Positions 29,901 to 59,388 of a stretch of DNA of 64,000 bases are shown one piece after another (positions within the stretch are counted from its first letter, which is position 1; the number at the start of each line of letters is the position of its first letter). The DNA comes from Sipunculus nudus (lineage: Eukaryota > Annelida > Sipuncula > Golfingiida > Sipunculidae). The position numbers and the translations under genes were made by a program. A model generated the notes under the pieces. It was not told the DNA's origin and did not search any database. It worked only from the letters and a program-made list of their open reading frames with translations. The DNA is taken from NCBI GenBank assembly GCA_026874595.1, contig CM049306.1, positions 107,405,142-107,469,141 on the forward strand, read 5' to 3'.

Positions 29901-30319
29901 AGAGAATGAGTGGGAAAGATAACGTAAGTCTTCACTTATTCATGGTCTATAAACAAATACAATGTAAATAATTGAATATGATGTTTTGTGTTGAATGCTG
30001 TTAACAACTACTTTTATTACGATATTTTTCCAGTAAAAAGACCGAACGCTCAGTATCTCCACACAGGTCAGAGCAATGCCTGGTGCAGTGCTTGATAAAA
30101 TGTCCCAGAGAGGGCTAGTGCTCAATAAAAAGAACGACCTGACAAAAGATGCAGGTGAAAACATAACCTCCTTGAAGGAACTATACTATAGTAAATATGT
30201 TGAAAAATAATAAAATTAAAAATAGGATATATTAATTTATACATTAATGAAAATACACAGACATATTTGAGCATTTGTAATATGCCCATTATGTTGCCTA
30301 TGTGTGTGATACCACTCAC

Positions 30320-30529
30320 ATTTCTGTTGAGCAGTGGTAGTTTCCTGTCGTCCGTGGATGACTGATTCGAGTTCACACGGGTGGGCGGGCCTCGGGGAGC
30401 TGTGCTCGGATCGTAAAAATCTCCACAGTGAGGACAAATTGTCCGGCGTGTCCCCGGGGCCAGAACGACGGTGACACTGCACGATGGGCACGTGAGTGTG
30501 TTGACCGAGGGAGTAGGGCTCGTGGCCAT
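30320..30529 (-). CDS. Gene 1 first coding exon: CxxC-CxxC zinc knuckle protein
   Basis: The frame starts at ATG 30529, with an in-frame TGA four codons upstream, and so this is a true N-terminus. It ends after 70 codons at the donor AGAAAT|gtgagt in phase 0. Residues 14-17 (CPSC) and 32-35 (CPHC) form a pair of Cys knuckles spaced 14 residues apart, with an intervening APGTRR turn. That layout resembles small zinc-ribbon or LSD1-like plant-type zinc fingers, here used as an N-terminal module. After residue 40 the chain becomes Pro/Ser/Asn-rich. It is followed by an intron of about 20 kb to 10394, although small exons between the two cannot be excluded. Gene name unknown. Confidence 0.8.
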
Positions 30530-30898
30530 TAACTTGTTTCACGCTGACATTTATCCTGTCATGGTTTTAATTCGCTGTTACTTGGCAGACGATCTTTGGC
30601 TTATCAAGGCCGCCATGTTGTTTGGGCTGAAAATAGTGCCGCGGTATTTCTAGAAATCAATCCGCGATGTTTTCCTTACAACGGTACGGACTAAAACCCG
30701 GATGTCGGATGTCACATGCTAAATCGGATGCCCCGTCGGATGCCTCTCGGGAGGTCGGTTGCCATACCCGGATGCGATCCAAGACATGACATCATAGGTG
30801 GTGAAACCGGGGATGCCTGCACTGATCGAGTTCAGCTCTCGATTGGCATGGCTGGGTCCTCGCTGCTGGGATCGGTGGAGGGAATACTCCTTTGTGGC

Positions 30899-36539: not shown

Positions 36540-39500
36540 TTGTGTCATATATTTGTTTATCTGCATATTGCGTCTGTTTACCTGGACCGTATGTCTATAC
36601 CTACACCTTGTGTCTGTTTATCTGTACCATGCGTCTGTTTATCTGTACCATGCGTCTGTTTATCTGTACCATGCGTCTGTTTACCTATATCATTAACTGT
36701 TTACTTGTGCATTATATCATTTTACCTGTACCATGTGTCTGTTTACCTGAACCATGTGTCTGTTTACCTGAACCATGTGTCTGTTTCCTGTACCATGTGT
36801 CTGTTTCCTGTACCATGTGTCTGTTCACCTGAACCATCTTTATGTTTACTTGTACCTTCTGTCTAATTACCTTACCATGTGCCTGTTTAACTGTATTATT
36901 CCTGATCAATTTGTCTGTTTACCTGTAAAATTTGTCTGTTTTCCTGTATCCTGTGTCTGTTAACGTGTGTTTTTATCTCCGTATACCTGTTTTATGTTCC
37001 TGTTTACCTGTGCCATGTGTCTATATACCTGTACCATGTATTTGTTTACCTGAACCCAGTGTCTTAATACCTGTACCATGTGTCTTTTTACTTGTACCAT
37101 TTGTCTATTTATCTGCACTATTTGTCTGTATACTTGTGCCATATGTCTTTTTTTCTGTACCAAGTGTCTGTTTTTCTGGAACAAGTATCTGTTTACCTGT
37201 GCATTGTGTCTGTTTACCATTAACAAGTGTCTGTTTAACTGTACCATGTGTCTGTTAACTTGCGCCATATGTCTTTTTACTTGTACCATTTGTCTATTTA
37301 CCTGTACCATGCGACTGTTTTTCTGTACTATGTGTCTGTTTACCTGTACCGTGTGCCTGTTTACTTGTACCATGTGTCTGTTGACCTGTACCATGTGTCT
37401 GTTTTCCTGTACCATGTATCTTTTTTCCTGTACTGTCTGTTATCTGTACTATGTTTCTGTGTACCTGTACCATGTGTCTGTTTACCTGTACTGTCTGTTA
37501 CCTGTACCATGTGTTTGTTGACCTGTACCATGTGTCTGTTTTCCTGTATCATGTGCCTGTTTACCTGTACTGTCTGTTACCTGTACCATGTGTCTGTTGA
37601 CCTGTACCATGTGTCTGTTTTCCTGTACCATGTGCCTGTTTACCTGTACTCTCTGTTATCTGTACTATGTTTCTGTGTACCTGTACTATGTGTCTGTTTA
37701 CCTGTACTGTCTGTTTACCTGTACCATGTGCCTGTTTACCTGTACTGTCTGTTATTTGTACTATGTTTCTGTGTACGTTTACTATGTGTCTGTTTACCTG
37801 TACTGTCTGTGACCTGTACTATGTGTCTGTTAACCTGTACCATGTGTCTGTTTACCTGTACCTTCTGTCTGTTTACCTGTACCATTTGTCTGTTTACCTG
37901 AACCATGTGTTTGTTTACCTGTACCATGTGTCTCTTTACTTGTACCATCTGTCTGTTTACCTGTACCATCTGCCTGTTTCCCTGAACCATGTGTCTGTTT
38001 ACCCGTACCATCTGTCTTTTTACCTGAACCATGTGTCTGTTTCCTGTACCATGTGCCTGTTTATCTGTACCATGCGTCTGTTTACCTATATCATTATCTG
38101 TTTATCTGTACCAAGTGTCTGTTTACCTGAACCATCTTTATGTTTACTTGTACCATCCGTCTGTTTACCTTACCATGTGCCTGTTCAACTGTATCATATG
38201 TCTGTTTACCTTATCCATTTGTCTTTGTACCTGTAACATTTGTCTGTTTTTCTGTATCCTGTGTCTGTTAACCTGTGTTTTATGTCCGTATACCTGTTTT
38301 ATGTTCCTGTTTACCTGTGCAATGTGTCTATATACCTGTACCATGTGTTTGTTTACCTGTACCCAGTGTCTTAATACCTGCACCATGTGTTTTTTTACTT
38401 GTACCATTTGTCTATTTACCTGCACTATTTGTCTGTATACTTGTGCCATATGTCTTTTTTACTGTACCAAGTGTCTGTTTTTCTGTAACAAGTATCTGTT
38501 TACCTGTGCATTGTGTCTGTTTACCATTAAAAAGTGTCTGTTTAACTGTACCATGTGTCTGTTAACTTGCGCCATATGTCTTTTTACTTGTACCATTTGT
38601 CTATTTACCTGTACCATGCGTCTGTTTTTCTGTACTATGTGTCTGTTTACCTGTACCGTGTGCCTGTTTACTTGTACCATGTATCTGTTTACCTGTACCA
38701 TCTGTCTGTTTACCTAAACCATGTGTCGGTTTACCTGTACTATGTGTCTGTTGACCTGTACCATGTGTCTGTTTTCCTGTACCATGTATCTGTTTTCCTG
38801 TACTGTCTGTTATCTGTACTATGTTTCTGTGTACCTGTACCATGTGTCTGTTTTCCTGTACCATGTGCCTGTTTACCTGTACTGTCTGTTATCTGTACTA
38901 TGTTTCTGTGTACCTGTACTATGTGTCTGTTTACCTGTACTGTCTGTTACCTGTACCATGTGTCTATTTATTTGTACCATCTGTCTGTTTACCTGTACCA
39001 TGTGCCTGTTTACCTGTACTGTCTGTTATTTGTACTATGTTTCTGTGTACGTGTACTATGCGTCTGTTTACCTGTACTGTCTGTGACCTGTACTATGTGT
39101 CTGTTTACCTGTACCATGTGTCTGTTTACCTGTACCTTCTGTCTGTTTACCTGTACCATTTGTCTGTTTACCTGAACCATGTGTTTGTTTACCTGTACCA
39201 TGTGTCTCTTTACTTGTACCATCTGTCTGTTCACCTGTACCATCTGCCTGTTTCCCTGAACCATGTGTCTGTTTACCCGTACCATCTGTCTTTTTACCTG
39301 AACCATGTGTCTGTTTCCTGTACCATGTGCCTGTTTATCTGTACCATGCGTCTGTTTACCTATATCATTATCTGTACCAAGTGTCTGTTTACCTGAACCA
39401 TCTTTATGTTTACTTGTACCATCCGTCTGTTTACCTTACCATGTGCCTGTTTAACTGTATCATATGTCTGTTTACCTTATCCATTTGTCTTTTTACCTGT

Positions 39501-40530
39501 AACATTTGTCTGTTTTTCTGTATCCTGTGTCTGTTAACCTGTTTTTTATGTCCGTATACCTGTTTTATGTTTCTGTTTACCTGTGCAATGTGTCTATATA
39601 CCTGTACCATGTGTTTGTTTACCTGTACCCAGTGTCTTAATACCTGCACCATGTGTTTTTTTACTTGTACCATTTGTCTATTTACCTGCACTATTTGTCT
39701 GTATACTTGTGCCATATGTCTTTTTTACTGTACCAAGTGTCTGTTTTTCTGTAACAAGTATCTGTTTACCTGTGCATTGTGTCTGTTTACCATTAACAAG
39801 TGTCTGTTTACCTCTACCATGTGTCTGTTTTACTGTACCATGTGTCTGTTTACTTGTGCCATATGTCTTTTAACCTGTACTATATGTCTATTTATCTGTA
39901 ACAAGTGCCAGTTTACCTGTACCATGTGCCTGTTTACCCGTACCATATGTCTTTTTACTTGTACCATTTGTTTATTTACCTGTACAATGTGTCTGTTTTC
40001 CTCTACCATGGGTCTGTTTACCTGTACTGTCTGTTACCTGTACTATGTTTCTGTTAACCTGTACCATGAGCCTCTTTACCCGTACCATATGTCTGTTTCC
40101 TGTGCCATGTGTCTGTTTACCTGAACCATGCGTCTGTTTACCTGTACCATCTGTCTGTTTACCTGTACCATCTGTCTGTTTACCTGTACCATGTGTTTAT
40201 TTATCTGTAACAAGTGTCAGTTAACCTGTACCACGTGTCTCTTAATTTGAACCATATGTCTTTTTACTTGTACCATTTGTCTATTTACCTGTACCATGTG
40301 TCAGTTAACCCGTACCATGTGTCTGTTTACCTGTACTAAGCGTCTGTTTACCTGTAATATGTTTCTTTTTACCTGTACTATGTGTCTGTTTACCTGTATC
40401 ATGTGCCTATTTACCTGTAGCATGTGTCTGTTTACCTGTAGCATGTGTCTGTTTACTTGTGCCATCTGTCCTTTTTCCCCTGCCATGTGTCTGTTTCTAT
40501 ATGCCATGTGCCATTGGGCCATTTTATATT
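36540..40530. repeat. 21-bp minisatellite with 1.3-kb higher-order repeat
   Basis: About 190 tandem copies of a 21-bp unit, tgtctgtttacctgtaccatg with variants. Because 21 is divisible by three and the common unit lacks stops in several frames, long open frames appear on both strands: plus-strand heptads such as CLFTCTM, VSVYLYH and VCLPVPC, and minus-strand HMVQVNR. A longer variant pattern is superimposed: accatctttatgtttacttg occurs at 36833, 38131 and 39398, so blocks of 1298 and 1267 bp are repeated. I regard the frames as artefacts; no splice sites, start context or signal supports translation. Confidence 0.95.
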
Positions 40531-40991: not shown

Positions 40992-41420
40992 TTAGACTAT
41001 AGTTGCGCCTACTTTATGACTGTACGTGGTAGTGTTACCCGGCGACGAAACAGTGACTTTCGCGTGTTTACGGTTGAAACCTGTCCCGTCATGAAAAACA
41101 GATCTCTTTTGATACATAATTAATTTGTAACCTGGTGGGGCAAAGCGTTCATGAGAGAAATAAGCTTTGATGACACAATGGTTTTCTACCAATTGCAACA
41201 TCAAAACATCTGATGAATCACTGCCCATAAAACTGAAGTTATATCCTTCCTCCCGTGACAAAGTACTCGCACGTGGAATTAAGTACACGTTGAGATGAAC
41301 TATTGTGTGTTTGTTGTTGATTAACAGAGCCGAGCCCGGAGGCACGGCATCTGACTGCAAGGTACAAACAGCTGCTCTAGTTCCGTTGCTCTTTTGGAAA
41401 GCCCTGAAATATTTTGCCAC
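40992..41420 (-). CDS. Uncertain open frame or terminal exon, unrecognised
   Basis: A 142-codon frame without an early ATG, ending in TAA. An acceptor-like aatatttcag|GG at 41408-41407 would open it in phase 2. Its composition is protein-like (for example LLINNKHTIVHLNVYLIP and SSDVLMLQLVENHCV) but matches no family I know. A frame this long can arise by chance about once in a window of this size. It lies 5 kb downstream of the Shisa gene stop on the same strand, in a phase that would accept the 47610 donor as an alternative last exon. Low confidence. Confidence 0.2.
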   Translation of the reverse strand: MAKYFRAFQKSNGTRAAVCTLQSDAVPPGSALLINNKHTIVHLNVYLIPRASTLSREEGYNFSFMGSDSSDVLMLQLVENHCVIKAYFSHERFAPPGYKLIMYQKRSVFHDGTGFNRKHAKVTVSSPGNTTTYSHKVGATIV

Positions 41421-42614
41421 CTCCTATCTCAGTGGATTAATAGGACAGCACGAGAGGCCCTCTGTGCACAGTGTAGAGAGTATAGTGCATTTTTGTAACA
41501 TCAACACGAATCACAAAGATAACTAATAAACAGACGTAGAAAAAGATTACATTCTTCAATCCATGAACAGATATTACAGAAACGGTGGAACATCATTCAT
41601 GGTTATTATTTAGCTTTTAATTTCAATAAAGCAACACATTATGTTGGCCTGCTTTATTTTTGAGGTACTCAAAATTATACATATCAAATTGATCGAAAAT
41701 AATTAAGTTAGAGAAAACAATCTTCAGATAAAATGATTAAGGTAACGTCTGTCCTCTGTTCGTGTTATTTTCTATACAAATACTCACAATGAGATTAAAA
41801 TATCAAAAATGGATTTCGATTCTGTGAACATTTTGATCGCACTTTTATTATCGATATATATGGTAACCAAAACCAGTTTTAGAAGGAAATTGGCTTTCAT
41901 AACTCCGATGGAGCCCGATATATAATAGACTTGTGGCATGGCAATATATTTTAAGTGGTTATTGTAGAGTTTTTGGCTCATCGGTACCCCTGAATCCGAG
42001 ATGGCCGGTAACGCCATATTTATAAGACATTATATGTGCTTGCTTTGACACTGAATGGGACAGAGGGAAGGATGATAAGGGAAGGGTTATTGTATACTAT
42101 AATATAATCATTGTGTTAACTATTCGCCAAAATTGTTATTGTGAACTTCCTGGATGATCTAAGCTCAATTAATCAAAAAATGGCTAAAGTGACGCTATAT
42201 TATAAAAGAAAATATGATATATCTGTTACCAGATGACCTAGAAACACAACCGAGTTGTCATTTGCCTGTAATTTTGGCATGACGAGTCCCCTGAAATGGT
42301 TATTGTAGAATTTAGGCACTACCCTGACCTGTAAGTCCAAGATGGCCACCGTCGCCCGCTTCATGTGACTGCCATCCACACCAAAAGAAGTCACTTATCA
42401 CACATCTATACCCGAAAAGCTCATCAAATTTAAAGTGCTACACATGCGCAGGAATATATGCGAACGCACCATATAGGAAGCGTTGTCACGGTTCACATTA
42501 ATAATTATAATTGATACTTACTGAATATGTAAATATGTAAATTCAGCACCTGAATAGACCACAGAATAAAAAAAATTAAGCAACTCATACTGATGGCCTG
42601 TCAAGTAAAAGAGG

Positions 42615-46372: not shown

Positions 46373-46535
46373 CTACAAAGTACTGCAGGTCAGATTTTGA
46401 AGGACACATCCTTGCATCGTGTAACGTCTTTGTGACCCTGTCCGTGTATGCCACGTGCCATATGACGTAGCATTCGTATCTGAAGGCTGAGTGATCCTTG
46501 GGGAAGGTAAACCAACCCGCGTCCATCTCTCTTTT
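46373..46535 (-). CDS. Shisa-like gene, last coding exon
   Basis: Acceptor ttgatttcag|A, entered in phase 2 so that AG from the previous exon plus A gives Arg. 53 further codons lead to TAG at 46375-46373. The tail is rich in Ser, Thr, Arg and Gln (for example SDTNATSYGTWHTRTG) with no further membrane segment, as expected for a Shisa cytoplasmic tail. Another frame here is also open and begins MDAGWFTFPKDH, but it does not match the phase of the exon at 47610 and has no usable donor, so I prefer this one. No canonical AATAAA was found on the minus strand within the next 600 bp. Confidence 0.7.
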
Positions 46536-47609
46536 CTGAAATCAACAAAAAATGAAAGAACGTCAAATTCTATTGTATCTGGACTTCATCTCATATAACG
46601 TGTATTTTTATATAAACATTCTTATTTCATTTGTAAAAAAATCCAGAAAATTGGCAATGCAGTATACAAAAACAAGTATATAATAAATAAATTGTAGTAT
46701 ATACATATGTGGCCAGAATATAAATCACATGCGATAAAACATTAAATAAGATAAAAACTGATCAAATTCTGGATTACAAATGGGGATCTATATATAAATA
46801 CCGCAGCCTCAGCAAGATACGAAATCTTCTGTAAACTCCTACCATGACAAAAAGCGAGTGTTCAGTTCACGGAAGTGAGTCAATTACTAATGCAGTGGAA
46901 TACATATATGTTTTGTATTTGATAAATAATCCAACCCACAATAAGAAATTAAATAATTTTGGGTGAGGTTAGATTGGAGATTAATACAATAATTTTAACA
47001 TTTAACCAAAAACTGACAACAAATTAGTAGGCAGAGCATATTTTCTTCTAATTCTTTTGAGTGTATACTTGTATGTGTATTTATTATTAGTTGTATGAAA
47101 GATTTGAAATATGAATCTCTATAAATGTGAAAAAGAGTTTGACATAGGTTATATTTCTTGCAGTAGGATATCGCCTGATGTCCTTTACATATGGTATCAC
47201 TTCATCATTCAATGCATATATGATCTCATATATATGTATATGGTATCTAAAAATTTGCGGAGCCCATTTGATCACAAGAAGTGTTTGTATTCGGACAAAA
47301 ACAGATCCCTTTACATATATATTCCTTCATATTTACGTTTGATCAACGAGTGAATGGAACAAAAGAAAAAAGTATATATATCGCATGCATGTACAACATA
47401 AAGTGTTATTGTGTTTCCTGTTTTGGGCGTCCTTCAGAAAGTCGGCTGATCCAAGGATTAACTCCCAGTCATCCAAATATCATCATCTGCCCGCCATAAC
47501 ATAAAACTCCCGGAGAGGAAAATAGAACAGGAAATCCATTATTTATCCCGGTCTCGTCTATATGGCAGGCAGTCATGGCCAGTATAACAGGACTAAATGA
47601 TTAATGTAC

Positions 47610-47748
47610 CTCCTGTCTGCGAGTAGTATCGGTTTCCCTGACGGCGGAATGGTTTCGTCCGATTGTTTCTTCCACCGGGTAAGGTCTTCCGGTGTGTAAG
47701 GAGGTGGCGCTTCCTCCAAGTGCGGGTAGAGTGCAGTCAGGTCCACAT
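47610..47748 (-). CDS. Shisa-like gene, cytoplasmic exon with PPPY motif
   Basis: Acceptor ttaattcag|AT and donor CAGGAG|gtac. Enters in phase 1, where G from the previous exon makes Asp, and leaves in phase 2. It encodes DVDLTALYPHLEEAPPPYTP followed by EDLTRWKKQ. The PPPY sequence is a class I WW-domain ligand, a hallmark of Shisa and related small membrane adaptors, which use it to recruit HECT-type ubiquitin ligases such as Nedd4. The preceding YPHLEE adds a further Tyr site. GC content is well above the flanking intron. Confidence 0.85.
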
Positions 47749-48038
47749 CTGAATTAATATAAAGAGCAGTACATTTAGTTTAATATAACTTTATATAGAG
47801 TACGTTATTATGCCTTTCATGGAAAATCAGTCGAGAAAACATAGGACAATCACATATTGCCTGAAATCAGTAACAAGGCCTACAGGCCTAATGCGAACCT
47901 GTGCATTGGGAAATACACCAGATATAATGCTTCAATACTTGACCATTACTTCTCATGTACATGTATATGAACAATGCAAGTACTATACATTTTGAATAAG
48001 AAACAATTACACCATCATCACTGCTGAAATTCTGGCAT

Positions 48039-48430
48039 GGGTGCACACAACACAAAAATGATTGTAGCTGGCACCACAAGTCTTGTATACAACGAAGCTA
48101 TCAGAGATATATACATATGCCCAATTTCAGACGGATATATCAAACCCCTCCTGAGAAATAAACAGGGACACACACTGTGCAAAAATTATTGTAGGTGGAA
48201 CCATCAGTCTTATATAGCTTGTACAAAGCTGTTCGATATGTACAAATATACCCAATTTCAGGCCGATATATCAAATTCCTCTATAGAAATAAGCAGGCAC
48301 ATACACTGTGGAAAAGTCAATGTAGGTGGCGATACCTGTCTTGTAAACGAGAAAGCCATCAATGACACATAGACAGGTCAAAATATCAGGCCAATACATC
48401 AAACTTACCTTGAGACTGATGCATGGGGCT
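48039..48430 (+). repeat. Tandem repeat of about 130 bp, three copies
   Basis: Three diverged copies start near 48039, 48169 and 48301. They share cacacactgtgcaaaaat, tgtaggtgg...cagtcttgta and ccaatttcaggccgatatat. The gtaggtgg..cca word resembles the palindrome in the cores of Families A and D. It lies in the intron between the Shisa exons at 52518 and 47748. Confidence 0.7.
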
Positions 48431-48469
48431 GACCAGGCTTAGGTGAGAAAGGCAGTTGCCCCGAGTGAA

Positions 48470-49110
48470 CTGTGACAAATTTGCTGGCTCAGGCTACTGC
48501 ACTGAGTGAACTCATGACCTGCACCTGGCTAGACTGAGTGAACTTTTGACCTGTACCTGGCTGCACTTAATGAACTTTTGACCTGTTGCATAATCTGACA
48601 CAGTTGGCAGTCTTCCAAAGCTATAAATAGATCCAGGCTGAACTTTGGTGCCAAAACTTATGCAGTGGGCAGTCTGCCAACGCTATTAATAGGATGCAGC
48701 TACTTCACTGAGTGAACAACTGACCTATACCTGGCTGCACTGAGTGAACTTTTGACCTGTTGCCTAATCCGATACAGTTGGCAGTCTGCCAAAGCTTTAA
48801 ATAGATCCAGACTGGCCTTTGGCCTGTTGCCAAATCTGAAATAGTAGCCACACCATTGCATAAGCTCACAGATTGACTCCACATGCAGCCCTGAGGGGAT
48901 GACACCCATGAGGTGATCACTTGGTACCCATGAGGTGTTCACATGTCACCCATGAGGGGATCACATGCCTTGTGCTTGGCTGCACTGATTGTACTCTTGA
49001 GCTATATCTGGCTGCACTGAATGAACCCCTTGATCTGTTGCCAAATCTGAAATGGTTGACAGTTTCTCAACCTATTAAAGATACAGACAAAACTTGGCCT
49101 GTTGGTTAAT
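48470..49110 (+). repeat. Degenerate tandem repeat in Shisa intron
   Basis: The phrases ctggctgcactgagtgaac, ttgacctgttgc and cagttggcagtctgccaaag recur several times at uneven spacing between 48500 and 49100. The last units are shortened. No coding signal. Confidence 0.75.
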
Positions 49111-49499
49111 CTGTTTACACATACTGAAAGACTGGCTAAAATGCTTTTTTTTCAAGCTGACATATTCATAAACTTTTTATCAAAATATCTAGAATAATAA
49201 AAGATGCAGTTCTTTCATTGTTAAAGTTCCAATAATTCAGCCAAAAATCATTCAAGTAAACTTGAACAAAGGCCACCGAAGAATAATTTTTGTGCCAATT
49301 TACAGAAGTTATAAATTTAAACAAAAATTTTGTAGAAGAACAGTTTTGCAGTCCTCAGTTTGAAATAGACATAATAGTGGCCATAAGACCAACTTAAGCT
49401 TTTCTGATATGCTCGAAAGAACCATGTCCTAGGATAATTCTTTTAAAAAATTGAACGATTCAACCTGACAGTTTCATCATAAACATTTTAAGCTGAAAG

Positions 49500-51800
49500 A
49501 GGCTAAAATTAGAGGTTTTTGCCCATAAAAAAAAGTCTACGTTGGTGGCACCACAAAATCTGCAACTTCAAATATGAGTCATGTGACCAACATTTGCACA
49601 ATACTTGGTAATGCTAGCTTCTGTCATTTCTGAGATTACTATGTCAGTATGCTTACTTGGCCAAATGACTGTTCAAATTCGTGTAACTCTACTAGAATTC
49701 ATCAAATGCAACTATTTGAACAAACTTGAGAGGGCTTGCCTCTGGGATCATTTGTGTAAAATATTGAACAATTTGGCTGAACCGTTTACAAGAAGAAGAC
49801 TTTTAAAGGTTTTTGAGCTTTTTCCCTATAAAATCTAGGTAAATGCAGATAGCAAAAAAAATAAGCTGAATCCCTCAATATTTTATATGTGACCGATTAT
49901 TGCATAAAATCTGGGGATGGTAGCTCCTGCTATTCCTGAGATTATGGGTTAATGTACAGATGACCAATGACTCCCGTACAAAAAAAGGTTAATGCAGGTG
50001 GCGCCACCAATACCTGAATTTCATATATGACTCATGTGACCAACACTGGCATAAAATTTGGTGATGATAGCTTTGGCCGTTTCTGAGATTTTTTTTATTT
50101 TAGTATGCTTTTTTGGACAGATGACTGGGTTCAACTTCCTCTGACACTCAGCGAAAATTCACCGAACTTGAACCATTCGAACAAACTTGAGAGAGATGGC
50201 ATAAAAGATTATTTCTGTGAAATATTGAACCATTTGGCTTGACCGTTTCGGAGGAGAAGATTTTTAAAGTTTTTTTTAGCTTTTTCTCTATAAAATCTGG
50301 GAAAATGCACAGTTTTTCAGATGGCTTTTTTTTGCATTAAATTTCATGATGCTATCTCCAGTCGTTTGCGAAATAGTATAGGTTAACGTACAGACGACGG
50401 ATGACGGACGCTGCCACACCATCGCATTAGCTCACAGGCTCGCTAAAAATTACTACAGATGCATATTGAATGCAAAATTATAATACAGATACATCTCACT
50501 GATGGCAAAATCTTGAATTAAGTTGAGTATGGATACCAATTATTTATTATCCATGTACAGCCGTCTTTATATACCCTCAGAGAGCTGTATAACTGTGATT
50601 GTAAACATTGCCTGGCATGAGGATTATCTAAAGTCATAAATCTACATTTTTTAAAAGCTTTTAAAAACACTCTGATCAATAATTACCATTGATAACCTGA
50701 AATCTAAATGTCCAGAGGCATGATGTAACGGATGCTGATAAACTGGTTCCAGGCTAGATGTATCTGCTTCACACAGCTAACATATATGGTAATATGACTC
50801 AATTCAATCTTTAAAATTCAGCCAAACTTTAATTATTATAAGAATTATTCAGGGGATTATTCTTGTAAAATATTAAACAAATTGGCCTCAGTGGTGCCAG
50901 TCAAAAAACGTTTTGCAGGTTTATAACTCATATGGGAAATAAAGCAAAATGGCTAAGTTAAGCTTCCCATAATTCAGCCAAAAATCACTGAACCAAAACC
51001 ATTTGAACAAACTTGAATTATAAAACTCTAAGAATAATTAATGTGTGAGATTTAAGAATTTGGTCCAGTGGTTTTTGAGAAGAAGATCTTTGTAGCCACT
51101 GAGCTAAAAAGGGATGTTATAACTAATGTTATGACTAAATTCAGCTCCCCATAACTCAGCCAAAAGTCACTGAACTGAGACCATTTGAACAAACTTCAGA
51201 AAGCACTACCCTAGGATTATTTCTGTGCGATATTAAACAATTTGGCCATATGGTTTCAGAGAAGTTTTTTGTAGCCATCAGTATGATACGGGCACTGATG
51301 ACCCCGGTACAAAAAAAGGCCGACGCAGGTGGCTCCACCAATACCTCAATTTCAAAAATGTCTCGTGTGACCAACATTGGCATAAAATTTGGTGATGATA
51401 GCTCCAGCCGTTTCTGTGATTGTAATTTTAGTATGCTTTTTTGGACATATGACTAAGTTCAACTTCCTGTAACTCTGCCAAAAATCACCGAACTTAATCC
51501 ATTTGAACAAACTTGAAAGAGATTGTTCCAGGAATAATTTCTGTGAAATATTTAACATATTGGCTGAACAACTTCGAAGAAGCTTTTTCCCTAGCTTATT
51601 TTTTTAGCTTTTTCCCTATAAAATCAAGGAATATGCAGTTACCCAAAAAATAAGATAGAGTTTTTTTCTATGACTATTTTTTTGCATAAAATTTCGTGAT
51701 GCTAACTCTTGCCGTTTTCAAGATAGTATGGGTTAACGTACAGACGACGGACGACGGACGACGCCACACCATCGCATAAGCTCACAGGTTCGCTAAAAAT
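49500..51800 (+). mobile_element. Family D repeat elements, two tail copies
   Basis: Core words such as ggcgccaccaatacctgaat, tgtgaccaacattggcata and aaatttggtgatgatagct recur from about 49540, 50000 and 51330. Two right ends, each a gacgacggacgacg tract followed by gccacaccatcgcattagct and cacaggctcgctaaaaat, lie at 50385-50450 and 51735-51800. The terminal gctaaaaat resembles the Family A terminus. The order core, tetranucleotide tract, conserved end is again pearl/Helentron-like. Confidence 0.65.
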
Positions 51801-52517
51801 ACTCACAGAGGAGCCTTGAGTTAATTTTTAATAGGAATAATATAATTTTCAAAACATGATATACAATACTTCCAAATTGCAATCCATTCTCTCTAGCGTC
51901 ATGATTCATCTCTACAGATTACGCATTGAAATCTAACAATAACATAGGTTTATATAACACGCACGGAAAACAGACGAGTAGCAAAACAGGATGACTGATC
52001 CTGTTTTTTGTACACATCTAATACTAACGCATGTATAAAAGAATAAAAAACCTCCGGATAAAAATTATGATTCTAACAACCATTATTGAAGTATGTGTTA
52101 GCATCGTCTCAGCTCTTTAATACAGGCACACCGTATATATAATGACTGAGCTATAATACCTGAAGAAAGGAGATAAAAGTAAAACGTGAATGTGTAAGGT
52201 GATTTTCCCAGCGGTTTGAAGCTGGGCCATAAAAAAGAACCTTTGACATTCGGAAGAATCAAAGCCGAAGTGCTCTGGTCTAGTGGGACCATGTTGATAA
52301 AGTGATCAGTAGTTCAGCATTGACTGGTGGCAGCGGCCTGTCCTCACACTTATTACTGTCGATCCCACCGGGACCTAAGACCACCACGCGTGACGTTCAT
52401 ACTCGCCCAAACGCTTGTAACCTCTATATTTACAATGTCTGTATATTATGGCGTTACATCCGGGGAGAGCCGGTTAAAGCACGCCGCAGACATATTGTTT
52501 GACTGGACTGGACGTAC

Positions 52518-52658
52518 CTGTTATGCTGAAGTGCTGGTAGTTGCCGGCCTGGCACTGGTACAGACACTGTTGCAGTTCTAAGCTCTCCCGCGCTGTCGCA
52601 AGCATCCCGCTTAACCTGCCAGCAGGCCGTGACTCACGACTTGAATCTCGACGGATAT
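52518..52658 (-). CDS. Shisa-like gene, first fully cytoplasmic exon
   Basis: Acceptor tgctaacag|AT and donor ATAACAG|gtacgt. Enters in phase 1, completing Asp from the transmembrane exon, and leaves in phase 1. It begins DIRRDSSRESRPAGRLSGML, a basic and Ser-rich juxtamembrane stretch, and continues through a Gln/Cys-rich part (ELQQCLYQCQAGNYQHFS). Vertebrate Shisa tails also start with basic and Cys-containing segments, but this sequence itself is not one I can match further. Confidence 0.8.
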
Positions 52659-52689
52659 CTGTTAGCATTAAAAAAGCTCCATATTACCA

Positions 52690-53150
52690 TACACCCAAAA
52701 AAACAGATTGATTAAATATATAACCAATTAAATTGGTTAAGCCAGTTTTTGTTGTTTTAACCAAGAAACTGTTTATCGTAACCAACGCATTGATAAATTA
52801 CTAACCAAACGAGTTAGTTGTTCTGACAATTTTTTATTGGTTAACAGAATAAAAATACTGTGTAGGTTTAACCAATATATTGGTCAACTGATAACCAGAA
52901 TATTGGTTACCTTACACATATATGACCAATTTGGTTGGTTGATATGATATTGTAGAATTAACCAACACATTGGTAATTTCAACCAACTTGTTGGTTATGA
53001 AGTAACCAAACTCATTGGTCATTGTGACAAATTTTTATTGGTTGACCATTTGCTTGCAAATATTTAACAAGTTTTCTTGGTTGAGTTAAAAATTGGTTGA
53101 TTTTACCAACATAATGGTTATTTTTACAAACTGATTGGTCAATCAAGGGC
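52690..53150. repeat. TAACCAA/TTGGTTA palindrome-dense stretch
   Basis: About 450 bp in which the words accaa and ttggt alternate, giving frequent short palindromes such as accaatatattggt. Spacing is irregular, so this is not a simple tandem array. It lies in the 896-bp intron between the Shisa transmembrane and cytoplasmic exons, filling most of it. Confidence 0.7.
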
Positions 53151-53554
53151 TTATCCTTTAGCAGGGACAACCATAATCTTAAACACATGATATAGATTTA
53201 CGACGAGCTAAGTTAGGACGTGATCTTTTAGGAGATCCGTAATGGGGCAACTTTGCCCCACAAGCCTCAACTTATGGGGCAAAAAAAAAATGTTTAATAC
53301 GGTGAATACAGGCAATTTCTTGCATATAACGTTAATGTTGATTAATTTTGCCGGATTTACCATTTCATGATGTTCTTAACATAGAGAGAGAAACCAAAAA
53401 ATGAAAAGATGAAGATTTTGAAAAAAAATTCAAAACACTTGCTGAAAACAAATGTTCAGTTGGCTTTTGTGCATGGATTTCCCGGTTATTTAATTATTTT
53501 TTATAAAAAATGAATATTTACATAAATGTAATATACAAAACCCTATATGCGTAC

Positions 53555-53670
53555 CCAATCGTCTGTGTCTCTTTTTGTAGAGCGGGCACGCCGGAGACAA
53601 CAAGCAGACGACCATCAACACTGACGTCACAGCAGTGGCGCCCAAAATAACCCCCACAGCCAGCGGGATC
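53555..53670 (-). CDS. Shisa-like gene, transmembrane exon
   Basis: Acceptor cgttgacag|G, entered in phase 2 so that TG plus G makes Trp, and donor TTGG|gtacgc in phase 1. It encodes IPLAVGVILGATAVTSVLMV followed by VCLLSPACPLYKKRHRRL: one hydrophobic helix of about 24 residues, a membrane-proximal Cys pair (LLSPACP) that could be palmitoylated, and a strongly basic stop-transfer sequence. This gives type I topology, with the Shisa domain outside. A second AG 22 bases upstream (tatacag|TTT) would read the wrong phase and reach a stop, and so the inner acceptor is chosen. Confidence 0.85.
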
Positions 53671-53697
53671 CTGTCAACGATATAATCAAACTGTATA

Positions 53698-53861
53698 CAG
53701 TGAAACCTCTATAATGTGGGCATCCTTGGGACTGGCCAAAGTGCCCACTTTATATAGGTGCCCGCTATACGGAGGTCATGGTCGTAACATAAATAATAAG
53801 AATGAGAAAAATCGGGACTGTCAAAAAGTGCCCATCATATAAAGGTGCTCACTCTAAAATT
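53698..53861. mobile_element. Pogo/Tigger-like MITE fragment
   Basis: Starts TA|CAGTGAAACCTCTATAATGT, the characteristic pogo/Tigger terminus with a TA target, followed by gtgcccactttatatagg and an inverse echo of it. The other terminus is missing, cut by the element at 53862. It lies 27 bp upstream of the Shisa transmembrane exon acceptor. Confidence 0.7.
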
Positions 53862-54303
53862 AAAGGTATGGGTCTCAGGCACCGCCCGCATCAATTTTAA
53901 ACTCGCGCATCAAAAATTTTGATTTTAATTTTCAATAGAAACTTAGCAATTGTGAGCTGCAGCCGCTTGGGCATTTCTTTCAAGAAGATAAAATATATAC
54001 AATTGCACCGCCCGCATCAATTTTAAACTCGCACATCAAAAATTTTGATTTTAATTTTCAATAGAAACTTAGCAATTGTGAGCTGCAGCCGCTTGGGCAT
54101 TTCTTTCAAGAAGATAAGATATATACAATTGCCTTTGTTATGTAGTGCTTTTACTTTTTTAGCAAAATAAATCTGTTATTATCATGCTTTTCCCTTATAA
54201 TTTGACATTTTTATCGAAACATACCAAAAAATTAAAAAAAAAAAAAAAAAACGCCCGCCCGCATTGATTTCTGAAAAAGTTCCTGAGAACCATACCCCTT
54301 TTT
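53862..54303. mobile_element. MITE with GGTATGGGTCTCAGG ends and internal 125-bp duplication
   Basis: Left end aaaggtatgggtctcagg and inverse right end cctgagaaccataccccttt. Inside, a 125-bp segment starting accgcccgcatcaattttaa is present twice in tandem (53881-54005 and 54006-54130) with almost no differences. Poly-A and cgcccgcccgc follow. Confidence 0.65.
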
Positions 54304-54749
54304 ATTTTGGCCTTATATTTCATATTAGGTCTGTGTTTAGGTATAATTGTAGGAATACTGGACCACCATCTTTTTTCACTAGACCCGAGAGAGATCTAAG
54401 CTCGGCTATGTTCCTGTGAATATTGTTTTTAAATATTGATAATTGAATGGTGCCAGCTAATGACGAGTTTACATTTAACAGACATTTTAAAAAACAGTTA
54501 TACCACACATACAATACAGAGAATGAAAATAATAAAATGGTGTCTAATAACATGTTTATAAAAAGTAAGTGTGTTGGGGTCACAAGTTCTTAAACACCTC
54601 TACTCTGACCTAAAAACATTTTTTTATTTAAACTAGATTTATACTACATTTTTATATTATACTAGAGGCATGCAGTTGTAGGATGGACTTGATATCGAGT
54701 GTATCCCGCCAAATGCAAGAAGCTTGGTAACGTCTGCACTTGCAATAAC

Positions 54750-54945
54750 CAGAAGCGGATCCGGGGGGGGGGGGGGGTCCAGGGGGTCCGGACCTCTCCT
54801 TTTTTGCAATCCGAAGCAACCTTTTTTCAAAGGTTTTAGGCAAAATTTTGCTGCATGCCCCCCCCCTTCCCTTTTTTTTGGTTTATCATTAGCCCCCCTG
54901 GATTGGACCCCTCCCCCCTTTTCCTTAATCCTAGATTCGCCCCTG
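54750..54945. mobile_element. GGCGGATCC-type MITE
   Basis: Left CAGAAGCGGATCCGGGG and inverse right CAGGGGCGAATCTAGGA are imperfect inverted ends around G-rich and C-rich tracts. The style is close to the elements at 30899 and 44319. Open frames on both strands here are not genes. Confidence 0.6.
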
Positions 54946-56205
54946 ATTATGAATGCACTCCAATGTATACAGGTCAATTCAATTGGATACAGTTAACCAT
55001 ACGATGATAGTTTAATGGTGTTCAGATTTCATATACACGTATGTCTCTGCATGAGGTTAACTTGAGATTTCAGTATTTCGGTCTAGACTCTGGTGGGGCT
55101 TGAGCAAATGGCCAGTTTAGTCCAACTGGAATAAACATAAATTATAAACGGTCAACATGGGTGAAAGTCAGAAGACATCAAGGGAAACGGGAGTCAAGTA
55201 GACGGGGTCACCTGGTAAATTACTTTCCCGGGAATATAGCGAAGACGACAGCTGGTCAGAATGGCCAAGGGCATGACGTCCATCTGTGCCCTTGTGGAGG
55301 AAAAGATGGCATATGGTCTGTGCGCGTGCGTTAGTAAAACATATATACACAGTATACACGGTGTGATACCATCTGTTTATGACCGAAATGCAAGCAGATG
55401 ATGAAGTCAAGGGGGTGAAGCGAGCGTGAATTAGATCTGCCTGGTATAGTAATTTAACCCTTCTCAAGAGGCCGGCACTATATACAGAGACTACATACTT
55501 AGAAAAGACCTCTCACTAAGTGGATGAAGCGACTGATCAACACAGCTGGGCACACGCTCACTTTATTTTGATTATCAACAACGATCTAATCCAAGAATTA
55601 AGCAGGCTTATCTAGTATGCGAATTGTGTCGCAGGCGCGACTGTATGCTGCAGCCGACGTTATTATCACATGCTACTGTCTATACTAGGAGTCTAGGACG
55701 ATGTTTTGAAGCCTGTATAAATAAAACGCTACCCTTATAATAACGGGCTATGTTCGGACAAAAAAATAATCCTGTCGTTACAGAGCACTCCTTGGTTTCC
55801 AATTTACGAAAGGTAACAAAAAGAATATTGAATTAAACGTAAGATTACTTTTCACAAAAAGGACACTTGATTTTTCTCCAATTTGTTGTTTTCATTTAAG
55901 CCGATTTATTTTCATGGCAAATAGTTTTGATTTGTATTGAAGTAAATCAGTTGCCTTCATTTCCTATTATGTTTTTGGGTCTTTTTTTGCTTCCACACTA
56001 CTTGTTTCTCATTTTAGATGAATACCAATTTTCTGCAGCTTCCAAAATCCTTAATGTAATTGACACGGAAATCATTCGCTTGCAAAATAAAGAGTGGTAA
56101 GCTCTGGTATGCTCACAATAGACACTGATTATGTTACTTCAGTTCCGTAACTATATCGCTGGGTTTATATAATGGTGTACTTCATTATGCCATGGTATTT
56201 AATTA
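54946..56205. other. Shisa intron sequence without recognised features
   Basis: No splice-bounded exon found. The minus-strand frame at 55467-55168 is open for 99 codons but has no motif or matching splice signals. Confidence 0.4.
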
Positions 56206-58470
56206 GTTTTTAGCTCAGCTGACTGTAAGTCATCTGAGCTATAGCGATCACCCTTTGTCCGTCGTCCGTCTGTCTGTCTGTCCGTCTGTCCGTCCGTCCA
56301 TCCGTCCGTTAACCTGGCACAAATCGTAACCACTGGACCAAGAAACTTGTAACTTGACATTCTGAGAGGTCCATGAAAAATCTCTTTGGAAACCAGAAAT
56401 GAGGTCTCTGTTACCCATATCCTTCGAGCTATGGGGCCCCAAAGTACCCCCCAGAATAGTAAAAAATTTCATACAAAAACTTCAATATCTCATTAACTAC
56501 ACCACTGATAGTCATGATTTTTGGCATACATATTGATCATGAGATGTTCCATCAGTTCCTGCAGACTGGTGGCGCCACCTGTATTTTTCGATTTTTTACG
56601 ATTTTTTTCTCTATTTTTGAGACCTTTAAAAATGTGAACATCTGTTAAGTGGGCCAAATCGTAACGACTGGACCTAGAATCTTCATTCTTAACACACTGA
56701 GAGACCTATAAAAAGTCTCCATGGAAACCAGAAATTAGGCCTCTGTTACCCATATCCTTCAAGTTATTGGGCCCCAAAGTACCCCCTAAGAATAGTAAAA
56801 AATTTCATACAAAAACTTCAATATCTCATTAACTACATCACTGATGGTCATGATTTTTGGCATACATATTGATCATGAGATGTTTCATCAGTTTTTGCAG
56901 ACTGGTGGCGCCATCTGTATTTTTCAATTTTTTACGAATTATTTTCTCTATTTTTGAGACCTTTAAAAATATGAACATCTGTTAACAGGGCACAAATCGT
57001 AAAGACTGGACCAAGAATCTTCATTCTTGACACAGTGAGAGTTCTATCAAAAGTCTCCATGGAAACCAGAAATAAGGTCTCTGTTACCCATATCCTTTGA
57101 GCTGTGGGGCTCCCAATAACCCCCCCCCCCCCCCCCCCAGAATAATGGAAAATTTGATAAAAAAAACTGCAACATCTCAATGACTACAACACTGATGGTC
57201 ATGATTTTTGGCATACATATTGATGAAGAGGTGTTCCATCAGTTTCTGCAGACTGGTGGAGCCACCTGTTTTTTTTCAAAATTTTACGATTTTTTTTCTC
57301 TATTTTTTGAGACCTTTAAGGATGTAGATATCTGTCAACAGGGTACAAATCGTAACGACTGGACCTAGAATCTTCATTCTTGACACACAGGGAGACCCAT
57401 TAAAAGTCTCCATAGAAACCTGAAATTAGGTCTCTGTTACCCATATCCTTTGAGCTATGACACTCTCAAGTACAGCTCAGAATAATGGAAAATTTGAAAC
57501 AAAAGCTGAAGTATCTGAACAACTTATGCAGAGATCACCATAATTGTTTGCATGGATATTGATCATTGACTGTTTCATCAGTTTCTGCAGACTGGTGGCA
57601 CCATCTGTAATTGTTCGGTTGTTTACACATTTTTTTCATAATTTTTTAGACCTTTAAAGATATGAACATCTGTTAAAAGGGTACAAATTATAACAACTGG
57701 ACCTAGAATCTTCATTCTTGACACACAGGGAGACCCATGAAAAGTCTCCATGGAAACCTGAAATTAGGTCTCTTTTACCCATATCCTTCAAGCTGTATGG
57801 CTCCAAAATGACCCCCAGAATAATAAAAAATTTGATACAGAAACTGCCGTATCTCGATAACAACAACACTGATGTTCATTAATTTTGCCATACATATTGA
57901 TCATGTGGTGTTACATCAGTTTCTGCAGACGGGGTGTGCCACCACCATTTTTTTCAAATTTTTACGCATTTTTTTCTCTATTTTTTTAGACCTTTAAAGA
58001 TGTTATCTGTCAACAGGGTACAAATCCTAACAACTGGACCTAGATTCTTCATTCTTGTATTACAAGGAGGCCCCTGAAAAGTGTCTGTGGAAACCTGAAA
58101 TTAGGTCTCTGTTACCTGTATCCTTCAAGCTATAGGACTCAGAAGTACCCCCCAGAATAATGGAAAATTTGATACAAAAGCTGAAGTATCTAAACAACTT
58201 ATGCAGAGATCACCATGATTCTTTGCATGGATATTGACGATGTGTTTTTATTAGTTTCTGCAGACTGGTGGAGCCACCTGTATTTTTTTAAAGTTTACAC
58301 ATTTTTTTCTTTATTTTTGAGATATATAAATACAGACACAATCTTGGCCTGTTGGTTAATCTGTTTGATGCTTCAGTTGAATGGGTATATACTACCATTC
58401 AGATGATAAAATTTCCTTTTACGAATCTCTTCCCAGTCAGCTGAGCGTCATGACCCATGGGTCACTTGTT
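56206..58470 (-). mobile_element. Family A element, inverted full-length copy A5
   Basis: In inverse order: right end ttagctcagctgactgtaag at 56210, a GTCC/GTCT tract at 56262-56308, about seven core units of 310-345 bp carrying gcagactggtggcgccacct or variants, and the head cagctgagcgtcatgaccca with tgggtcacttgt at 58440-58468. It lies in the intron between the Shisa-domain and transmembrane exons. A run of C occurs at 57121-57138. Confidence 0.75.
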
Positions 58471-58774
58471 ACTGTATTGTCGGGAGCCTATATGCTTTTT
58501 TTTCTGGTCTGTACATTAATTGCTTTTGTGATAATATATTGTGAGTTCATCCATATTTGTAACCATTGTTGATTATAAAATTTATATTTGTTGTTAATTT
58601 GTTGTTTAGTTCTTCTACAAATCAATCAACGTATTTCTTAAATATCACTAGTATAGGGCACATGAATTTGCACCTCGTAACTCCTACTTTGAGGATTCTT
58701 GTTTTTATGTAGACCTATTATTTTTATATATATTTTCGGTAAAAAAAAATAATTTGTCCAGTATGTGGACGGCG

Positions 58775-58878
58775 ATAACGTATGATCCCAAGTATAAGCA
58801 ATAACGTATGATCCCAAGTATAAGCAATAACGTATGATCCCAAGTATAAGCAATCATGTATGATCCCCAGTATGGCAG
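58775..58878 (+). repeat. 26-bp tandem repeat, four copies
   Basis: Unit ataacgtatgatcccaagta plus taagca starts at 58775, 58801 and 58827, with a diverged fourth at 58853. Confidence 0.9.
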
Positions 58879-59219
58879 AGCTCAGCAGACCGGCATCTGA
58901 TTGTGAATTCAATACCACACTGTGCAGAATCGGACACACATCAGTACGACTCTCCTGGTTACTACATAATAAATAATGAAGAATAAATAATATTTTGAAA
59001 GCATGTGCATGTGACATGTAAACAGGTGGTGTTCATAAAAAAATGTTCATAACAAATTTTTATTTTAAAGTTTGACAGTGGTAGTCCCGGCCGTCGAACA
59101 CTGCGTAACTGGAAGAGGTTTTGTTTGAGAAGAAACGACCTCTGGCGGAAAATAGATTCAATACAATAAAATACATATGCATCATCACTGCATCATCAGT
59201 TTAAAGTAAAGAATCTCAC

Positions 59220-59388
59220 CAGTCTGCCTTTTCAGTGCTGGTCTTTTCGGACGGCGCCATTGGAGGGCAGCAGTATCGGAGGTGCTCGGTACCACAACAA
59301 AAATGTGTACTTGTTCCACTATCAGCGGGACATGGGAACCCATTGTTCCAGACCCCCGCCTCGTCAATAAAACCCGGACAATACTTAT
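59220..59388 (-). CDS. Shisa-like gene, extracellular cysteine-rich Shisa domain exon
   Basis: Acceptor ttttcgcag|AT (phase 1) and donor GACTG|gtgaga (phase 2). It encodes KYCPGFIDEAGVWNNGFPCP, then HFCCGTEHLRYCCPP. This is the N-terminal Shisa signature: C-G-x-D-x2-G-x-W-x2-GF-x-CP, then FCCGT-x3-RYCC. Shisa proteins are single-pass membrane proteins that in vertebrates retain Frizzled and FGF receptors in the ER or act as AMPA-receptor auxiliary subunits. Most have CCGTC in the second motif; here Cys is replaced by Glu, leaving six Cys. A Thr/Ser/Lys linker leads to the transmembrane exon. The subfamily cannot be assigned. Confidence 0.9.

Follow-up and report, generated by a model that had tools for sequence, protein, structure and literature searches.

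Does a series of five minus-strand exons, which a sequence-only reading had joined into a Shisa-family membrane protein, belong to one intact animal gene, and what might its product do? We addressed this in a window of 64,000 nucleotides (C1:107405142-107469141), the whole stretch of DNA analysed, which comes from an assembly of 1.43 Gb in 153 contigs. In reading order, the exons are:

Exon A, 59220..59388, minus strand: acceptor phase 1, donor phase 2; beginning of the mature lumenal part, with the Shisa_N Cys-rich domain
Exon B, 53555..53670, minus strand: acceptor phase 2, donor phase 1; transmembrane (TM) helix
Exon C, 52518..52658, minus strand: acceptor phase 1, donor phase 1; cytosolic tail, 141 nt or 47 codons
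Exon D, 47610..47748, minus strand: acceptor phase 1, donor phase 2; PPPY (PY) motif within EEAPPPYTPED
Exon E, 46373..46535, minus strand: acceptor phase 2, ending at the stop; C-terminal tail NLTCSTL, then TAG

Five exons join in phase into a Shisa-type protein

Joined, the exons encode 241 residues that start with KYCPGF and run to the TAG stop without internal stops. The borders carry AG acceptors and GT donors (exon E ends at TAG), the phases agree at all four junctions (2-2, 1-1, 1-1, 2-2), and the exons lie where the sequence-only reading had placed them, with the phases it gave. As a full coding sequence the five exons fell short: exon A starts within a codon, at phase 1, so the window does not contain the whole gene and at least one upstream coding exon is absent, in keeping with a candidate signal-peptide exon in one paralogue (p05).

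We compared the exons with chance by scoring splice sites with rough hand-typed matrices; these, the hydropathy scale and the thresholds came from general knowledge and were untrained on this genome. The control comprised 339,386 bases of other strands and other regions, with the window exons' own scores as thresholds. It contained three phase 2-to-1 TM exons scoring at least as high as exon B, no look-alike of exon C, one of exon D, and five terminal exons like exon E, two of them with a GC content of at least 0.45. At the same thresholds, a scan of the gene's own region recovered each of exons B–E as the claimed exon and nothing else, apart from a longer variant of exon B with the same start; the donor of exon B is weak (0.08 bits), with a second donor of the same phase 33 bases on. 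GC content is 0.48–0.57 in the exons against 0.32–0.38 in three of the four introns. Codon scores, based on usage in 1,569 paralogue codons, were set against open intron fragments of equal length: the exon's score was reached by 0 of 3,049 fragments for exon A, 221 of 7,520 for B, 101 of 4,807 for C, 0 of 5,100 for D and 37 of 3,523 for E. Exon B was beaten on the opposite strand, in stop-containing frames, and exon C by two other frames, both closed by stops; exon D has a second open frame, which scored 14.4 compared with 19.0 for the claimed frame. Searching the entire genome with the joined protein (11 candidates scored) found relatives of exons A and B only, with no second copy of exons C–E at E ≤ 10.

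The join and a Pfam search bear out the predicted layout: a Cys-rich Shisa domain, a single TM helix followed by a basic stop-transfer sequence, and a tail with PPPY. A Shisa profile match for exon A, whose absence the sequence-only reading had named as a refutation, was found: the exon scores 47.8 bits against PF13908 (Shisa_N; cut-off 22) and the full join 44.1 bits. With a score over the curated cut-off, the protein is a member of Pfam Shisa_N. The join matches no other Pfam family at E ≤ 1, and exon A alone also touches DUF2650, at 11.7 bits, below the cut-off of 22.9. The best PDB sequence match of exon A is the N-terminal domain of mouse Shisa-3 (5m0w, E 4.2e-6), to which the Cys-rich domain is 40–46% identical over 41–43 residues. 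A structure predicted for residues 1–55 without an alignment (pLDDT 71.9) gave the same domain as its top Foldseek match (probability 1.00, E 0.015; next match E 2.9). The two differ in that Shisa-3 has CCGSC where the window protein has CCGTE, and in that the window protein, after its last CC, has no further Cys ahead of the TM helix. Exon B carries two Cys near the cytosolic end of that helix, followed by CPLYKKRHRR, in which KKRHRR is the basic stop-transfer sequence.

A separate signal-peptide exon is expected for the window gene because p05 has a good candidate for one, 5 kb upstream and with a phase-1 donor. The remaining 4.6 kb of the window held no convincing signal-peptide exon. In the 60 kb upstream, the best candidate lies outside the window at window-equivalent positions 77826-77703, 18.3 kb upstream, with a score of 16.9. 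It is the top candidate both under strict thresholds (1 and 5 passing) and when these were relaxed (29 of 686 pre-candidates passed). A 540 kb control gave one candidate reaching 16.9, itself the predicted TM exon of paralogue p01, and one more at 16.7. We keep 77826-77703 as no more than a tentative candidate for the signal-peptide exon of the window gene.

A family of Shisa genes shares the exon plan

A profile search of the genome with PF13908 gave at least 12 matches, all over the cut-off, among 22 scored candidates. They comprise six single places and three tandem pairs:

C10, 43.54/43.55 Mb: tandem pair of PF13908 matches
C1, 21.04/21.05 Mb: tandem pair of PF13908 matches
C16, 56.99/57.00 Mb: tandem pair of PF13908 matches

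Eleven of the 12 Shisa_N exons have a phase-1 site as their highest-scoring acceptor in the open frame; in p11 the phase-1 site comes second, and p04 has other sites of almost equal score. The best-scoring donor is phase 2, again in 11 of the 12, with p07 an exception by 0.7 bits and the donor of p09 very weak. Eight of the 12 genes, the window gene included, have a phase 2-to-1 TM exon, which in p08, p09 and p12 was recognised only with relaxed thresholds; in p04, p07, p10 and p11 none was found within 5.7–9 kb. A PPxY tail is common to all eight genes with a recognised TM exon, and every one of them has a phase-1 site as the top-scoring acceptor of its PY exon (p09 has two candidate PY exons). 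Because the exon phases agree among paralogues, we read a shared plan of signal peptide, phase 1, Shisa_N, phase 2, TM helix, phase 1 and a tail with a PY motif. Exon B is 44% identical to the TM exon of a paralogue on C6. Paralogue p01 (C1:81680537-81680680) is 59–60% identical in the Cys domain, has the same phases, a TM exon and a PPSY tail, but differs in its tail sequence, and its 32-codon candidate exon between the TM and PY exons is unlike exon C.

Three members (L024, L025 and L026, at C10 43.54-43.55 Mb and 52.04 Mb) form a subgroup with long single-frame tails. These tails carry two close PY motifs, PP[SA]YESLPKDPPKY, and two of the three end in VETH.

The cysteine is missing from all twelve domains

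Exon A contains six Cys in the order C*C*CC*CC. The window protein had been said to lose a Cys usually found in the CCGTC motif; the residue is indeed absent, but its absence is not special to this protein. All 12 Shisa_N exons of the genome lack it (CCGTE in the window protein, then CCG followed by TE, TS, QA, TV, NR, HV, NI, NQ, SP, DK and EK), so we rejected it as a peculiarity and regard it as a feature of Shisa in this genome. Nor does the literature make it one, since six Cys in the order C*C*CC*CC is the general pattern of the STMC6 family in the available text of PMC5578492.

Aligned with 11 paralogues, the window protein lacks Cys 5 and Cys 8 of the vertebrate-type pattern, for which the reference is zebrafish Shisa (eight Cys, C*C*CC*C*CC*C; PMC10531659, in part); the eighth Cys of Shisa-3 is not visible in the alignments examined. 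Because the zebrafish pattern is not found in it, the window protein is not a vertebrate-type eight-Cys Shisa. Zebrafish Shisa-1 to -9 have a signal peptide, a Cys domain, a TM helix and a tail with PY and/or PDZ motifs; the window protein, with a predicted signal peptide, has the Cys domain, the TM helix and a PY tail in common with this layout, and it differs in having six Cys instead of eight (same excerpt). Its six-Cys order, single TM helix and PY tail make it a member of STMC6. The likeness is to CYYR1, WBP1, VOPP1 and fly CG15760, which have six Cys as C*C*CC*CC, one TM helix and a cytosolic PY motif (PMC5578492, available text); the window protein differs from STMC6 proteins in scoring above the Shisa_N cut-off.

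Seven of the 12 domains have six Cys and five have eight; none has an odd number. The eight-Cys domains have exactly two extra Cys, one at YC(D) and one after the last CC. These counts could fit, tentatively and on balance doubtfully, a lineage-expanded Shisa set with a disulphide swap, in which an optional fourth disulphide has two alternative partners and the window gene is the minimal form with a skippable tail exon. The early extra Cys lies within CCGxC in vertebrate Shisa and at YC(D) in this genome's eight-Cys domains, and the swap would hold if the late Cys pairs with either early Cys. As evidence for a swap, the parity of the Cys number (six or eight, never odd) is weakened by the tree, where the five eight-Cys domains group together, if weakly (77/88), so that parity may reflect one event. 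Six of the ten inner branches of this tree are open and the window sequence is a long branch, and it was used only for the eight-Cys grouping.

Other features of the window and the assembly

On the same strand as the Shisa gene and 5 kb past its stop, positions 40995-41423 (minus strand) hold an open frame of 143 codons, protein-like in composition, for which Pfam gave no match. A tandem array of 3.9 kb at 36572-40496 (21-base unit, about 189 copies, 73% matches) leaves several frames open and yields long spurious open reading frames. An open frame at 30125-30538 (minus strand) contains MATSPTPSVNTLTCPSCSVTVV and ICPHCGDFYDP, a possible zinc-ribbon exon; its Pfam matches are all below their cut-offs, with a best E of 0.002.

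Elsewhere in the assembly, nine CoxA-type cytochrome-oxidase genes (418.8–420.4 bits) lie on eight minor contigs (C60, C61, C62, C66, C72, C74, C75 and C89, with two on C89), and a tenth gene, cbb3-like by reading, lies on C123. The C60 copy is bacterial and at most 59% identical to the listed genomes, the best being an Oligoflexia metagenome-assembled genome. Some contigs in the assembly seem to come from a poorly known bacterium, whether symbiont or contaminant. The COX1 search, which returned these ten genes, all on minor contigs, recognised no animal mitochondrial gene. A muscle-myosin exon has the squid structure 3i5f as its best solved match, at 194.1 bits, narrowly ahead of myosin-6 at 193.0 and the scallop chains 2ec6/2os8 at 192.8; this is compatible with a bivalve host and not decisive for one. 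At C2:44.849-44.852 Mb, four versions of one myosin-head segment (about profile positions 109–153) lie next to each other, an arrangement like that of genes with alternative muscle-myosin exons. A plus-strand exon at L027 8137 may encode part of an amiloride-sensitive (DEG/ENaC type) channel.

A putative PY-motif adaptor, and the alternatives

We consider it fairly probable (about 0.6) that most of an intact animal gene lies in the window, and that it encodes a type I single-pass protein of the Shisa/STMC6 kind which acts as a putative PY-motif adaptor for NEDD4-type ligases. A predicted signal peptide (exon not found) would precede the six-Cys lumenal domain, the TM helix and the cytosolic tail with one PPPY. 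By analogy with its relatives, its most likely role is to connect a membrane partner with a WW-domain protein, probably a ligase of the NEDD4 type. The exons, their phases, the domain, the TM helix, the PY motif and the gene family are seen in the sequence; ligase recruitment, partner and compartment are what we infer here. The lumenal domain and TM helix would pair with a partner membrane protein on the secretory or endosomal route, PPPY would bind WW domains of NEDD4-family E3 ligases, and the surface level of the partner would be set by ubiquitination and sorting. The precedents come from several relatives. CYYR1 binds WWP1 via PPxY at late endosomes, WBP1L is an adaptor for NEDD4-type ligases on CXCR4, and the two recruit ligases of the WWP1/NEDD4 type to late endosomes or to the plasma membrane (PMC11399591, available text). 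VOPP1 and WBP1 bind WWOX through PPxY (PMC6125347), and vertebrate Shisa proteins hold back Frizzled and FGF receptors (PMC5578492, excerpt). Counting against the adaptor reading, CYYR1 has three PY motifs and the window protein one; in CYYR1 the loss of one motif had barely any effect and the loss of two abolished WWP1 binding (PMC11399591, same text). Shared architecture also does not give one function, because in flies Xenopus Shisa4 failed to enhance midline crossing that depends on Robo, as the excerpt of PMC5578492 has it.

It is unlikely, though far from negligible, that the gene is real and its 3′ half partly misread, with exon C a skipped cassette, exon E in another frame, or both. 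Exon C is symmetric, with phase 1 on both sides, and could be skipped without a frame shift. A 1-to-1 exon between the TM and PY exons was sought in two paralogues: p03 has none, and p01 has one candidate (32 codons, score 8.9, unrelated sequence) at the same place. The extra tail exon may therefore not be peculiar to the window gene, and the uniqueness of exon C was not upheld among the two paralogues examined. The splice sites of exon C score well (2.6 and 5.6 bits) and the 339 kb of control contains no look-alike of it, so that it is probably used at least sometimes; it also outscores the region's two other 1-to-1 candidates (8.2 against 4.0 and 3.1). Exon E is the least certain of the five exons. 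Its alternative, with the acceptor 5 bases on and the ending SVYCLFL, is open for 61 codons, but the acceptor it needs scores −2.7 against 4.2 bits for the claimed one, and its frame has a codon score of 1.7 against 5.8.

Exon E bears equally on a quite improbable reading in which the protein is a synaptic-type auxiliary subunit like vertebrate Shisa6–9, its S-T-L end binding PDZ scaffolds and the protein modulating a ligand-gated channel. The C-terminus does match the PDZ-ligand pattern [ST]x[VLI] given in PMC10531659, whose available text also describes PY and PDZ motifs together in zebrafish Shisa-7 and a zebrafish Shisa-6 without a PDZ-ligand motif; in mussel gill, Shisa-like proteins and neurotransmitter-gated channel domains are both over-represented (PMC5549309, in part). 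Yet S-T-L is three residues on the least certain exon, the motif is absent from the four paralogue tails that were followed as far as the first stop codon (two end in VETH, one in REH and one in KTM), and the two Cys near the TM end resemble Shisa1–5 and not Shisa6–9 (PMC10531659, as above). The accessible portion of PMC7653359, moreover, confines AMPA-receptor Shisa to vertebrates. That the gene is a decayed or unexpressed copy would fit with there being no convincing signal-peptide exon nearby, but five open exons with canonical borders and raised GC, with exons C–E in single copy, make this very improbable. An intact Shisa/STMC6 gene with a PY-motif tail is the reading we prefer.

Shisa in protostomes

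The sequence-only reading called invertebrate Shisa proteins little studied, and this is fair: no paper devoted to molluscan Shisa was among the matches listed in a search that covered little of the subscription literature. Among the few bivalve mentions is an over-representation of the Shisa Pfam family in mussel gill (PMC5549309, available portion), which suggests several genes in a bivalve. In the accessible text of PMC7653359, C. gigas and L. gigantea have no Shisa and A. californica has one, and protostomes that have any Shisa have one or two.

The single window gene is ordinary of its kind, and the extra value lies in the Shisa family of the genome. The six-Cys form offers a test of which disulphides the Shisa domain needs. 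At least 12 Shisa domains in this genome stand against the published 0–2 per protostome (PMC7653359, same text). Reading exon by exon, with the phases as a guide, brings out a fast-evolving family which may have escaped gene counts, and, if the host is a mollusc, the view of Shisa as few or lost in protostomes needs redoing.
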